25,765 nucleotides of DNA from a virus: positions 1 to 25,765 of IMG/VR virus record IMGVR_UViG_3300042569_001035; one strand, written 5' to 3'. A model generated the notes under the pieces. That model had not been told where the DNA came from and searched no databases. It worked only from the letters and a program-made list of their open reading frames with translations. Both the position numbers and the translations under genes were made by a program. This document shows positions 18,437 to 25,765 of this stretch, one piece after another (within the stretch, counting starts at the first letter, position 1; every line of letters begins with the position of its first letter).

Positions 18437-19537
18437 TTAGAACAGGTTGATTTTTTCCCAAGGCAAGTAATCCTTGCCAAAGTGCCCGTAGTTTGTGGTA
18501 CTACTGTAGATGGGACGGAAAAGATCAAAACGTTCAATAATGCCTCGAGGTGTTAGGTCAACGTTGTCTTGTACCCATTTGGTCAATTCACGACTTTGTG
18601 GCTTGTGGTCTGTTTCAATGTAAAAACTCATGGGCTGTGCCAGGCCAATAGCGTAGCTGATCTGAACTGTTGCCCAGTCTGCCCGGCCACTTGCCACAAT
18701 ATTCTTGGCAATCCAGCGTGTCAAGTAGGCAGCACTTCGATCAACTTTAGTAGGATCTTTGCCACTGAAGGCTCCGCCACCATGAGGACTATACCCGCCA
18801 TAAGTGTCAACAATAATTTTACGGCCAGTGAGCCCAGTATCACCATCGGGACCACCAATAACAAATCGACCAGTGGGGTTAATATGAAACTCAGTTTTCT
18901 CATCCACAAACTCCATTGGTAAAACTTGACGAATAATTTCTTCTACTGCGGCACGGACAACATCAATTGGCATGTCGTCACTGTGTTGGGTTGAACACAC
19001 AACTTTGGCCATGCGCTTGGGTGTGCCATTGTCATTGTATTCAAATGTTACTTGACTTTTGGCATCAGGACCAAGCCAAGTCAATGTACCTGCTCGACGC
19101 ACTTGTGCCAAGTGCTCCACAATCTTGTGACTGTAGTAGATAGCACTGGGCATGTGATTATCAGTTTCGTTGCAGGCATATCCAAACATCAAGCCCTGAT
19201 CGCCTGCACCAAACGTGTCTGTGCCCAGTGCAATATCTGCACTTTGTCCGTGCAACAAGTTGGTAATTTCTGCCGTGCGCCAATCAAAACCTGACTGTTC
19301 GTAACCCACATCCTTGATAACTTTTCGCACTGCTGATTCAACTTCTTGGTCGTGTAGAATGCCTTTGTATTCTCCTGCTACTACCACACGATTAGTGGTA
19401 ACCAACGTTTCGCATGCGCAACGTAGAGCGGGATCCTGTTTGGCCATCACAATGTCTAGCACTGCATCGCTAATAGCATCCGCGATTTTGTCCGGGTGCC
19501 CTTCACTCACACTTTCACTTGTAAACAAATAACTCAT
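18437..19537 (-). CDS. metK: S-adenosylmethionine synthetase
   Basis: The 366-aa protein is nearly full length (E. coli MetK is 384 aa). Present are GHPDK at 13-17 (ATP/metal site), the family signature [12 protein letters not shown] at 110-121, [20 protein letters not shown] and GGGAFSGKD at 253-261 (second signature). It makes SAM from methionine and ATP. All key elements look intact, so the enzyme should be active. The start ATG follows AAGGAAAAT, and the uvsY stop TAA is part of that Shine-Dalgarno, which suggests coupled translation. A SAM synthetase gene in a phage is best read as an auxiliary metabolic gene supplying the methyltransferases and radical SAM enzymes encoded nearby. Confidence 0.95.
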
Positions 19538-19544
19538 ATTTTCC

Positions 19545-19997
19545 TTAAACTTGAATATCTTCCATACCTGCTGTGCGCAAACGAACTACATGTCCCATTT
19601 GCCACTGCTTGGAATCCAGGCCTTTCATGATGCCCAACCATCGGTTACGCAACAAGGCCACTTCGTTGATGATAGTTTCAAAGTCAATCACTTCGTCTTC
19701 ACCATCAACATATTTTTCAGCATCCCTACTGGTCAGCGCACGAGCATAGGCTTCCAGATACTTTTGAAAATGCTTGCGTCGAATCTTGCGCAGTTGGATG
19801 TTGAGATAGTTTAACACAGCTTCAATTTCTTGCAGTTGGTTAAATCTATGTTCAGTAATGCCCGGCAAGGTTGTGATGTTTTTCTCCACCAGGCCCCCAA
19901 TACGACAATCCTTCTTGGCAGACTCAAGCTCGTGTTCATAGTGAGCAATAAAGTCTGGTATTGCATCAAGGCCGGCAGTTATACGACTATACCACAT
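19545..19997 (-). CDS. uvsY: Probable UvsY-like recombination mediator
   Basis: The 150-aa, strongly helical protein ends in a region (VDGEDEVIDFETIINEV then LLRNRWLGIMKGLDSKQWQM) whose spacing of acidic, hydrophobic and aromatic positions follows the C-terminal half of T4 UvsY (137 aa). UvsY loads UvsX onto ssDNA coated by gp32. The basic stretch RKIRRKHFQKYLEAYARAL could contact DNA. The assignment rests on this pattern, the size and the nearby uvsX; it is not certain. The gene overlaps the radical SAM stop by 11 bases and is followed by metK after 7 bases. Confidence 0.68.
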   Translation of the reverse strand: MWYSRITAGLDAIPDFIAHYEHELESAKKDCRIGGLVEKNITTLPGITEHRFNQLQEIEAVLNYLNIQLRKIRRKHFQKYLEAYARALTSRDAEKYVDGEDEVIDFETIINEVALLRNRWLGIMKGLDSKQWQMGHVVRLRTAGMEDIQV

Positions 19998-21234
19998 ATT
20001 TTTTATACTTTACTAACCAAGGGAATAGCACAGTCCAGTCGGTGCCACGGCGACGATCTTTTTCTTCTAAAAATACAAAAAGATCACGGATATCTGTTGG
20101 GCTGTGAGTTGGCTGGCATATTTGTTGAAATATGCCTTTCATGTATTCATACGCTAGAGAATCCTCATCTGTGTCTGTGGGCAATAGACTTAAAATAGTA
20201 TCCATATCTTTTTCAAATTCATCTCCGGGCAATATACCTGACTTTAAATAATTTGGTCCCGGTTCTACTCCTGAAAACCAATGTCCTATTTTACGCTCTT
20301 TGCGCCATTCTATTAATTTTGTTAAAAGTTCTGGCATAGTCTTAATTGTTAATACTGAAATAGTTTGATTGATCATAAGATATAACCATTTATACTGCAT
20401 CAGATAACGAAAATTTTCCTCCCATCTTTTAAGATCGATTCCGTATCTCACATATTCTTGTTGAGGTCCCCAACAATCAATACTGACACTAATGTCAATT
20501 CTGGCAATCTTTCGATCTACTAATAGTTTACGAAATTTAGGTATAAATGATGCCAATCGTTCTGGAGATACCATAAGATTGGTTACGATATTTAATTGGC
20601 AGTCAGGATTGGGATATTTGTCAACCATTTCTAAGAAATAATCAAATTCCTGTTGTATCAATGGTTCGCCACCTAAAATTCCCAATCGTTTAAGTTTAGG
20701 AAATCCATCAGGAAACCATTCCCAAAATAAAGGAACATAGTCTTTGTATTTGTTTTTAATAATAGGAAGGTGTACTCCTCCTTGTTTGAATTCTTTAAAT
20801 TTGTTGTTTTCTGCTGTGTTGGTACTACTAAGACCATTGGGACAATATAAACATCCCATGTTACAAGCACTACTAAAATATACTTCTAGTAGAGTAGGGC
20901 TAACGTTAACGGCCTGAAGATTATGTTCTAATTCTGGCGGTGACATATCAGGTATGCTTAAATGGCGCATGCGATCGCTTGTGCCCCCTACTTCTTCAAT
21001 TTTACGACAATAAGCACAACTATCTTCTGGCCATAGTCCCTGCAACATTTGTTGCCGATCCTGTATTTTTAATGGAGTATTATGAAATTGCATAAAGTCT
21101 TCTGGAGCAACTGTGCCAATGGCTGTTCGATGACAGCTTCCTGTTACACCATTATTAAGATATAATGTACTCCATGCCCATTTAAGTTGGCAAGCGGTAT
21201 TTGTTTTTATTGGAAAATATTTTTTGTCAGGCAT
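19987..21234 (-). CDS. Radical SAM protein with N-terminal Cys cluster domain (1)
   Basis: The 415-aa protein has the radical SAM motif C124-x3-C128-x2-C131 (SACNMGCLYC), which binds the [4Fe-4S] cluster that cleaves SAM, and GGEPL at 188-192. Upstream lies a second Cys set: C15, C34, C73, C76 (the last two as CAYC), suggesting an auxiliary Fe-S cluster of twitch/SPASM type but placed before the barrel. SVSIDCWGPQQEYVRYG matches the late-barrel strand of MoaA/SPASM-like enzymes. The substrate is unknown; a sugar or peptide modification is possible. It overlaps the next radical SAM gene by 8 bases and uvsY by 11. The DNA is AT-richer than metK or uvsX. Confidence 0.85.
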   Translation of the reverse strand: MPDKKYFPIKTNTACQLKWAWSTLYLNNGVTGSCHRTAIGTVAPEDFMQFHNTPLKIQDRQQMLQGLWPEDSCAYCRKIEEVGGTSDRMRHLSIPDMSPPELEHNLQAVNVSPTLLEVYFSSACNMGCLYCPNGLSSTNTAENNKFKEFKQGGVHLPIIKNKYKDYVPLFWEWFPDGFPKLKRLGILGGEPLIQQEFDYFLEMVDKYPNPDCQLNIVTNLMVSPERLASFIPKFRKLLVDRKIARIDISVSIDCWGPQQEYVRYGIDLKRWEENFRYLMQYKWLYLMINQTISVLTIKTMPELLTKLIEWRKERKIGHWFSGVEPGPNYLKSGILPGDEFEKDMDTILSLLPTDTDEDSLAYEYMKGIFQQICQPTHSPTDIRDLFVFLEEKDRRRGTDWTVLFPWLVKYKKYVV

Positions 21235-24868: not shown

Positions 24869-24869
24869 G

Positions 24870-25415
24870 TTAAAAAGTTATTTCTTTAAGATTGAATCCG
24901 AGGTTGTTAGTTTCTGACATTATTAACAAGAATGTTTTTACCCAGTTAGTCAGTTTTGTTTGTTCCTCAACTGTGATTGTATCACTATAAAGATGCACAG
25001 GGTTGATCAAAACAATCCTGGGCCAAACAGATTTAAATGACAACTGGGCACTGGCCTCATTCAATGAAACTTTGGCTGTACGGTATGCATCCATGCCAGG
25101 ATCATCAAACAGATTTCTTGGCAAGACTGGAGTATAGGTAATTGCACTGCTAATATTTATTATGGTTTTTTGTTGGTTTTTCCAACGTTTCCATAGTTCA
25201 TATAGTACGGTTGTTTGAACAAAATCTGGTTTTGCAACATTGATAAACATGTCACACTCAGTAGTTTGATCAAGCATTTTTTGCATGTGATCCCAATTTC
25301 TTAGATCGTAGCCGTTGGAGCGACTGAACCCGCTGACTTGATGTCCTGATTCTTCATACGTTTTTTTAAACTCGGCGCCAAGGCCTCGAGTATGACCAGT
25401 GATAGCAATTTTCAT
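24870..25415 (-). CDS. Short-chain dehydrogenase/reductase (SDR), short form
   Basis: The 181-aa protein carries the Rossmann signature TGHTRGLG at 6-13, FINVAKPDFV in place of the usual NNAG, INISSAIT at 86-93 with the catalytic Ser, and YRTAK at 111-115 (Tyr111, Lys115). It is shorter than typical SDRs (about 250 aa), lacking much of the C-terminal substrate region, but the catalytic residues are intact. It may reduce or oxidise a sugar or another small molecule. It overlaps the second SDR by ATGA and ends one base before the radical SAM ATG (24868). Confidence 0.82.
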   Translation of the reverse strand: MKIAITGHTRGLGAEFKKTYEESGHQVSGFSRSNGYDLRNWDHMQKMLDQTTECDMFINVAKPDFVQTTVLYELWKRWKNQQKTIINISSAITYTPVLPRNLFDDPGMDAYRTAKVSLNEASAQLSFKSVWPRIVLINPVHLYSDTITVEEQTKLTNWVKTFLLIMSETNNLGFNLKEITF

Positions 25416-25765
25416 AATTTTGGACCCAATGATATATCTGAGATAGTTAAATTATTGGTCTGTGCTATTTCTAACATAGATACCAACGCTCCGGCCCAGA
25501 CATTTACATCTGCGGCAGGTGGCACTGTTTTGTCAGCACTGGTTGCAATGTTGCCCGGTCGAACTAGAGTAATTTTTATACCTGAGCGACTATTTCGTAT
25601 TTGACTTACCGCTTGTTCTAGTGTGGTTTTTTGTATTCTGTAAGCCATCATATCCAGTCCAGGCAATACACTCACCGGATCTTGTGTCATCATGGTGCTG
25701 ATGACCATGATGTGTTTACCACTACCTTTCCAACGCTGAACCATCTCAAACAACAATTCGGTCTG
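25412..25765 (-). CDS. C-terminal part of a second SDR (cut by window edge)
   Basis: An open frame continues without a stop through the right edge, so the start lies outside the window. About 117 residues are visible: HIMVISTMMTQDP (Ser strand), MAYRIQKTTLEQAV with the YxxxK pair, and ITLVRPGNIAT, the PG motif after the sixth strand. It is thus the C-terminal part of an SDR and a likely paralogue of the next gene. The ATGA overlap with that gene suggests the two are co-translated and perhaps form a heterodimer. Confidence 0.78.
   Translation of the reverse strand, partial: QTELLFEMVQRWKGSGKHIMVISTMMTQDPVSVLPGLDMMAYRIQKTTLEQAVSQIRNSRSGIKITLVRPGNIATSADKTVPPAADVNVWAGALVSMLEIAQTNNLTISDISLGPKL

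Follow-up and report, generated by a model that had tools for sequence, protein, structure and literature searches.

The 25,765-base virus record IMGVR_UViG_3300042569_001035 of IMG/VR, taken as a whole and hereafter called the window, carries on its minus strand three radical S-adenosylmethionine (SAM) genes (A, B and C), two short-chain dehydrogenase (SDR) genes and the methionine adenosyltransferase gene metK, interspersed with the recombination genes uvsX and uvsY. The two SDR genes and radical SAM gene A are the 3′ part of a cassette of the order sulfotransferase-like gene, radical SAM gene R1, an optional 2-oxoglutarate (2OG) oxygenase-like gene, one or two SDR genes and radical SAM gene R2, which is gene A of the window. 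The phage lineage is uncultured and related to the jumbo phages PA5oct/PAC2 and Phosso, and we have very little doubt that its genomes share a conserved backbone, made of gp32, uvsX, the gene of a small acidic protein, uvsY and, further on, a uvsW-type helicase gene, the junctions of which are slots for exchangeable cargo. Radical SAM genes B and C and metK are probably separate cargo in other slots, i.e., several independent cargo units and not one pathway. The best explanation of the region as a whole, put forward tentatively, is a slotted backbone bearing a tailoring cassette that would act on a sugar or nucleotide sugar.

The cassette between gp32 and uvsX

The gene order given in the original prediction (SDR, SDR, radical SAM A, uvsX, acidic protein, radical SAM B, radical SAM C, uvsY, metK), its interleaving with uvsX and uvsY and its tight spacing are confirmed by the open reading frames (ORFs) and by related contigs. 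Nine ORFs, from SDR1 to metK, are listed on the minus strand without internal stops, neighbours overlapping by as much as 11 bases or standing at most 7 bases apart; a 60-kb contig (L005) holds radical SAM A, B and C at 100% identity in the order of the window, and two contigs from one other metagenome hold A (L004) and B with C (L026), again at 100% identity. SDR1 (25412..25765, minus strand), in which the SDR motifs are invariant in the alignment, has lost its 5′ end at the window edge and retains 117 of about 180 amino acids (aa), a full copy lying at L005:8915-9457. The two other visible cassette members are SDR2 (24870..25415, minus strand), a 181-aa short-chain dehydrogenase-like protein recognized by weak SDR model matches and motif alignment, and the final gene of the cassette, radical SAM A (23708..24868, minus strand). 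On the 5′ side of SDR1, L005 carries genes for the terminase large subunit (nearest cultured match the PAC2/PA5oct terminase, 51.6%), a 693-aa protein, a gp32-type single-stranded DNA-binding protein (phrog_1192), a 208-aa protein and radical SAM R1; the window edge therefore truncates a longer cassette sited between gp32 and uvsX. The sulfotransferase-like gene, which encodes the 208-aa protein, and R1 are the two most tightly linked genes of the cassette, and both fall beyond that edge. The oxygenase-like gene is missing from L005, and therefore presumably from the phage of the window too.

Linkage was counted in four samples anchored on uvsX, R1, the SDR and the sulfotransferase-like gene, each made of the best 80 loci from at least 599 to 600 stretches. 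Near-identical loci were kept (different proteins at 97%: 63 of 80 for R1, 61 of 80 for the sulfotransferase-like protein and 54 of 78 for UvsX, the uvsX sample having been reduced to 78 by dropping the same-contig repeats L121 and L176). Around R1, the 208-aa sulfotransferase-like gene lies directly 5′ in 80/80 loci, and the next gene downstream is an SDR in 44 and a member of the 2OG-oxygenase-like family in 36, the profile of this family having been built from those genes found after R1. Reciprocally, the sulfotransferase-like gene is followed by R1 in 80/80 loci and preceded by gp32 in 77 and by a contig end in 3; the pooled figure of 156/156 R1 genes with a sulfotransferase-like gene upstream counts contigs repeatedly and carries no statistical weight here. 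From the SDR, R1 is found at most three genes upstream in 75/80 loci (absent from 3 in which the stretch is visible, cut in 2) and R2 at most three genes downstream in 79/80. The uvsX sample was not selected for the cassette. The whole gp32-uvsX junction (slot 1) is visible in 61 of its 78 contigs, of which 20 are empty, 11 hold the cassette and 30 hold other cargo; all four genes occur in 10, the sulfotransferase-like gene and R1 only in 1 (L183), and none in 50 (co-occurrence of sulfotransferase-like gene and SDR, p = 1.2e-10). These linkage counts uphold one part of the prediction: the SDR genes and radical SAM gene A are members of a conserved cassette of the modification type, the genes of which are joined by overlaps between gp32 and uvsX. 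The cassette genes mostly overlap, with median spacings of -20, -4 and -17 bases, values that may overstate the overlaps because starts were chosen mechanically as the first ATG, GTG or TTG.

The set also persists through rearrangement. Four loci (L024, L077, L079 and L103, with three different R1 at 97%) have the order SDR, R2, sulfotransferase-like gene, R1, and a distant locus (L388) combines SDR, sulfotransferase-like, R1 and oxygenase-like genes in a different arrangement. L388 is a 10-kb contig filed under a Porticoccaceae metagenome-assembled genome, isolate MED13, which opens with a DnaB-type helicase gene matching the phage family phrog_19. Among the best 80 of 171 R1 relatives in the genome scan it is the one close relative (48%), the other 79 standing at 33% identity or less; a bacterial origin or context for R1 was accordingly set aside, these 79 reading as general radical SAM relatives.

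Selection and allele history were compared across the same genes. Median ratios of nonsynonymous to synonymous substitution rates (dN/dS), from the 25 closest usable pairs for which non-independence has to be allowed, show purifying selection throughout (sulfotransferase-like 0.117, R1 0.070, SDR 0.093, R2 0.087, uvsX 0.037). Controlled for uvsX, the distance correlation is 0.61 between SDR and R2 (49 contigs with all genes) and 0.69 between gp32 and the sulfotransferase-like gene (33 contigs). Without this control, sulfotransferase-like gene and R1 correlate at 0.37 (0/500 permutations as high) and R1 and R2 at 0.16 (10/500). To judge from these comparisons the cassette is a mosaic, in which the gene set is retained and alleles recombine, a pattern that argues against simple block transfer and is compatible with selection on the set. 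Strict block inheritance was considered and finds no support in the allele correlations.

That the cassette is one functional unit appears likely, and several observations pull the other way. In the distant copy L388 no R2 can be clearly recognized (the radical SAM protein nearest to R2 there scores 221 bits to the general profile vs 97 to that of R2), and our confidence is set slightly lower for this reason. With uvsX controlled, the correlation is just 0.12 between sulfotransferase-like gene and R1 and 0.08 between R1 and R2 in the 49 contigs. A tree built from 133 radical SAM representatives together with A, B and C of the window separates R1, R2, B and C into four fully supported groups. 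On it, the place labels “first in slot 1” and “slot 2” cluster strongly (0/500 shuffles as low); the label “last in slot 1” barely does so (11 changes, shuffled mean 12.6; 30/500), because R1 or others sometimes occupy that place. Finally, anchored samples consist of the nearest relatives of the query and under-sample distant members, so the linkage counts hold for that neighbourhood.

Candidate chemistry and substrates

The active-site residues of the cassette proteins are conserved. The radical SAM motif CX3CX2C is invariant in 16 R2 sequences (C125, C129, C132) and in 11 R1 sequences (C97, C101, C104), and in the same alignments four further N-terminal cysteines, at twitch/auxiliary-cluster positions, are invariant (R2 13, 31, 71 and 74; R1 3, 21, 56 and 59); in B and C the motif was seen by eye. 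Against the family N_Twi_rSAM (NF033640, whole-protein cut-off 170 bits), A and C score above the cut-off with 262 and 215 bits. The SDR family keeps TGxxxGxG and YxxxK (T6, G7, G11, Y105 and K109 invariant in 22 sequences); its model scores are weak, the cut copy of SDR1 matched no model, and its profile drew seven oxidoreductases over short stretches from the PDB sequences. In 22 sequences of the oxygenase-like family, H101, H186 and R198 are invariant and D103 is present in at least 90%, an HxD...H...R pattern that we take to be the 2OG-Fe(II) oxygenase facial triad and 2OG arginine; in Pfam, one of the 22 members matches Asp_Arg_Hydrox (E 0.018), and the unrelated RRM_2 scores better in one (0.0025). 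In 30 sequences of the 208-aa protein, N32, R65, R70 and G74 are invariant and K31 and S73 nearly so, residues that presumably constitute the motifs binding 3′-phosphoadenosine 5′-phosphosulfate (PAPS), namely a lysine loop and an RxPxxRYxSG-like stretch. The AlphaFold2 (AF2) model of this protein (pLDDT 88) finds sulfotransferases in all of the top eight Foldseek matches and in all of rows 1 to 33 of a VIA structural comparison (Z 5.2 to 3.4), glycan (heparan-sulfate) enzymes coming first.

A tailoring pathway for one product is a probable role for such a set. With the 5′-deoxyadenosyl radical cleaved from SAM, R1 and R2 would perform two C-H activations of a single small substrate; the SDRs would adjust the oxidation state of a carbonyl or hydroxyl, and sulfate drawn from the PAPS of the host would be placed by the sulfotransferase on a hydroxyl or amine. 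The target would be a sugar or nucleotide sugar incorporated in the end into a glycan, whether of the virion or of the infected cell; this is the weakest step, and we hold it to be possible, somewhat short of likely. The hint of a glycan comes from the AF2 model of R2 (pLDDT 86), the structural neighbours of which include BlsE (Z 12.0) and DesII (10.8). Host supply of PAPS is suggested by the scarce and partial APS_kinase matches, which exceed the Pfam cut-off in 5/18 records (best E 1.2e-12) and cover the first ~60% of the profile. It is conceivable, again with rather less than even confidence, that widespread uncultured jumbo-phage relatives carry a dedicated pathway for a sulfated molecule or glycan modification that has no known cellular counterpart and would be expressed inside the recombination operon.

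The evidence on the other side bears on both the sulfate and the sugar. Pfam Sulfotransfer_2 matches just 7/30 members of the 208-aa family at E up to 1 (best 0.0015), and the L005 copy has no Pfam sulfotransferase match; the best Foldseek E value is 0.15, a Z of about 5, being below 8, may mean a common arrangement only (adenylate kinase comes next at 3.3), and the profile found no match among PDB sequences at E 1 or better. An APS_kinase match was seen in 1/11 records chosen by their cassette locus vs 4/7 others. The claimed link to the neighbouring sugar island was not borne out: sugar genes follow uvsY in 23/24 cassette contigs vs 21/27 without the cassette (p = 0.10, not significant), and the cassette shows no association with island type (p = 1.0), tests that, like the other slot, metK and sugar association tests below, are based on small numbers and ignore phylogeny. 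Peptide-modifying radical SAM enzymes, moreover, tie with BlsE as neighbours of R2, and the fold of R2 therefore does not choose the substrate, sugars and peptides both being possible.

The same cassette might thus have a protein or peptide target, either a virion protein or a host peptide, through maturation by SPASM/twitch-type radical SAM enzymes and sulfation. The R2 model is as near sactipeptide synthase (11.9), anSME (11.7), SuiB (11.6) and SkfB (11.4) as it is to BlsE, with MoaA within the same range, and a SPASM match (PF13186) was found in the N-terminal part of A. Against this, the overlapping or abutting genes leave little space for a small precursor ORF within the cassette, and Pfam scans of A and R1 gave no extra domain; we regard a peptide target as rather unlikely, yet as the strongest competitor of the sugar reading. 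The acidic protein encoded next to uvsX was also considered as a radical SAM substrate and is disfavoured, being a backbone protein found with or without radical SAM genes.

Modification of nucleotides or of phage DNA would fit the location between gp32 and uvsX, among replication and recombination genes, and viperin, a nucleotide radical SAM enzyme, stands among the structural neighbours of R2 (Z ~10). Hypermodification of phage DNA by radical SAM enzymes is known; for DNA sulfation, on the other hand, we know of no precedent, and slot 1 also accepts formyl-, hexapeptide acyl- and GDSL-type genes. A nucleotide or DNA target is improbable in our estimation.

Backbone, slots and other cargo

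The proposed tailoring cassette shares the region with a backbone that is most easily seen in cultured relatives. By profiles, Sinorhizobium jumbo phage Phosso has gp17, o693, gp32, uvsX, the acidic gene and uvsY with no intervening genes, and Pseudomonas phage PAC2 has gp17, a 520-aa gene, o693, gp32, uvsX, the acidic gene, a 111-aa gene, uvsY and uvsW; in PAC2, a 477-aa ORF interrupts uvsX (L472:8053-12887), and a gene with the annotation Hef-like homing endonuclease comes after it. In the window, the backbone comprises, all on the minus strand, uvsX (22650..23705; phrog_97, E 2.8e-67), the small acidic protein gene (22393..22653), uvsY, the recombination mediator (19545..19997; phrog_231, E 2.6e-14), and a DNA helicase gene taken as uvsW by its position (4001..5494; phrog_16, E 2.8e-75). 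The acidic protein has no match in Pfam, NCBIfam or PHROG; its gene adjoins uvsX in 68/70 uvsX-uvsY slots of the uvsX sample and has profile matches in PAC2 and Phosso, which make it part of the backbone of the recombination operon, as yet without a name, rather than cargo.

Where slot 1 is empty, the gap between gp32 and uvsX is 55 to 73 bases in 18/20 contigs. Its other cargo (52/53 ORFs scanned) gives few Pfam matches, Asp/Arg hydroxylase and AMP-binding twice each and formyltransferase, hexapeptide, B12-binding, symporter, radical SAM, GDSL and others once each. One contig (L111:2060-9948) shows very different slot-1 cargo, with formyltransferase-, symporter- and B12-binding/radical SAM-type genes recognized by eye. 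A 284-aa protein of no assigned family, encoded at 5467-6321 of the window, stands alone in slot 1 of 5/61 uvsX contigs and occurs within radical SAM arrays as well.

Radical SAM genes B (21227..22396, minus strand) and C (19987..21234, minus strand) are cargo of the uvsX-uvsY junction (slot 2), where they lie between the acidic gene and uvsY. B scores 161.6 bits (E 3.1e-47) to NF033640, slightly below the cut-off, and C 214.8 bits; each belongs to a clade of its own, that of C also including members of radical SAM arrays from other loci. Slot 2 is wholly visible in 70 contigs, with a radical SAM gene in 28 and none in 42; the acidic gene and uvsY are adjacent in 41 contigs, in most of which they overlap or abut. 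B occurs in 14 of the 70 slots, C in 14, both in 0 and neither in 42, the class being the better of two profiles and one gene so classed (L182) falling outside both tree clades. B and C are usually alternatives, and the window is unusual in carrying both. The claim that B and C share a pathway with the cassette finds no support here: they occupy another junction, and a slot-2 radical SAM gene shows no association with the cassette (5/9 cassette contigs vs 19/44 others, p = 0.72) or with sugar-island type (p = 0.46). The sample anchored on radical SAM C held the best 80 of 84 relatives.

After uvsY, slot 3 of the window holds metK (18437..19537, minus strand), a full-length methionine adenosyltransferase (TIGR01034, 484 bits; cut-off 309), and a GDP-mannose 4,6-dehydratase-like gene (17443..18417, minus strand; 397 bits, slightly below the TIGR01472 cut-off of 415), the ORF of which begins at a TTG at 18537, the ATG at 18417 being the likelier start. 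The adjoining sugar island (8439..17462) contains GT8-, GT17- and other glycosyltransferase-like genes, FkbM and other methyltransferase genes and a cytidylyltransferase-cupin fusion, several members having no Pfam match and being named by eye. A family of about 250 aa, methyltransferase-like by eye (L183:11762-12523 and relatives, a cluster of 59), is common in the first two genes after uvsY, a place taken in the window by metK.

Supply of SAM dedicated to the radical SAM enzymes, as proposed for metK, is poorly reflected in the best 80 of 169 phage metK loci, where a radical SAM gene lies within 3 kb in just 14. Restricted to loci with 3 kb on both sides, a radical SAM gene is near metK in 6/37 vs near uvsY in 16/27 (uvsX sample), and within the uvsX sample metK follows uvsY in 1/22 contigs with a slot-2 radical SAM gene and 2/41 without. 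A trend in the other direction counts against the separation of metK: loci of metK with a visible uvsX-uvsY slot hold a radical SAM gene there in 9/13 vs 28/70 for the uvsX sample (p = 0.07), or in 7/10 (p = 0.09) once the phage of the window and one repeat are removed.

Radical SAM genes of the N_Twi family number 0 to 16 per record (18 records, E 1e-20 or better), some as tandem arrays. Runs of up to four paralogues were seen in L085, L087, L092, L093, L096, L104 and L107, and the arrays of L092 and L096 lie beside metK and a gene related to that of the 284-aa protein. A gene for an A-type Fe-S carrier is present in 12/18 records, one of them without any N_Twi match; a 60-kb contig nearly identical to the window has one (PF01521) at G001:C1:5933-6235.

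The slots could also be tolerant landing sites whose genes have nothing to do with one another and stay together through chance and linkage, as the other cargo in 30/61 slot-1 contigs and the recombination of alleles within the cassette would allow. This reading may hold for B, C and metK; for the cassette, the reciprocal 80/80 linkage, the set kept through rearrangement and purifying selection argue against it, and as a general explanation it is quite improbable. Least probable of all, even with its odds raised slightly for the metK trend, is that metK, the two SDRs and the three radical SAM genes make up a single pathway that supplies its own SAM, a reading which the one apparent transcript of the window, the position of metK beside the arrays of L092 and L096 and the slot-2 trend favour, and which the lack of detectable association between slots (p 0.72, 1.0 and 0.46), the alternation of B and C and the metK scan disfavour. 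What stands of the undescribed modification pathway proposed in the original prediction is the cassette, which our literature searches did not find described; the union of all nine genes is disfavoured.

Comparison with known phages and enzymes

Radical SAM genes in phage cargo are familiar from marine viruses. T4-like pelagimyophages have radical SAM cassettes added, with glycosyltransferases, in a hypervariable host recognition region (PMC7029224). Their island lies between VrlC and gp14, unlike the slots described here (gp32-uvsX and acidic-uvsY); the parts of that account available to us mention no sulfotransferase or SDR partners, and give the freshwater genomes as lacking radical SAM genes (PMC7029224). 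A T4-like marine viral genome encodes 12 radical SAM genes together with Fe-S assembly genes (PMC5332604), which resembles the many radical SAM genes per phage and the phage A-type Fe-S carrier genes found here; no cassette or slot structure is mentioned in the portion of the account consulted (PMC5332604).

Among cultured phages, PAC2 (Arenbergviridae) and Phosso share the backbone order gp17, gp32, uvsX, acidic gene, uvsY, and the profiles detected no radical SAM, SDR or sulfotransferase-like gene in the regions examined; for PA5oct (Arenbergviridae) the likeness is seen in the terminase match only. Distant relatives of A and R1, at 21.6-27% identity, are the radical SAM genes of Vibrio phages KVP40 and K566, for which the profiles found no sulfotransferase-like or SDR partner in the 16-kb regions examined. 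In cultured phages, tblastn detected neither B nor C at a threshold of 1e-5, and neither SDR2 nor the sulfotransferase-like protein when the threshold was 1e-3. In open-access full text, no paper was found that combines sulfotransferase, radical SAM and phage genome, or that reports a sulfotransferase among the auxiliary metabolic genes of a jumbo phage, and a literature look-up for family NF033640 found none.

For the N_Twi radical SAM proteins, a family that is common in aquatic phages and so far without explanation, the analysis names a definite set of genes and provides a map of slots, and it tells apart the genes that seemingly work together from those that are merely side by side. It also makes the substrate question testable by the expression of five genes; if the product is indeed a new sulfated modification, it would represent new phage biochemistry. 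A works-like model for the radical SAM and SDR members of the cassette is AprD4/AprD3, a radical SAM enzyme and an SDR that act in sequence in sugar deoxygenation; to our knowledge no sulfotransferase accompanies this pair, and the likeness is one of presumed function. Cargo islands and radical SAM-rich phages are of a kind already known, of which the cassette and its slot are a novel form.

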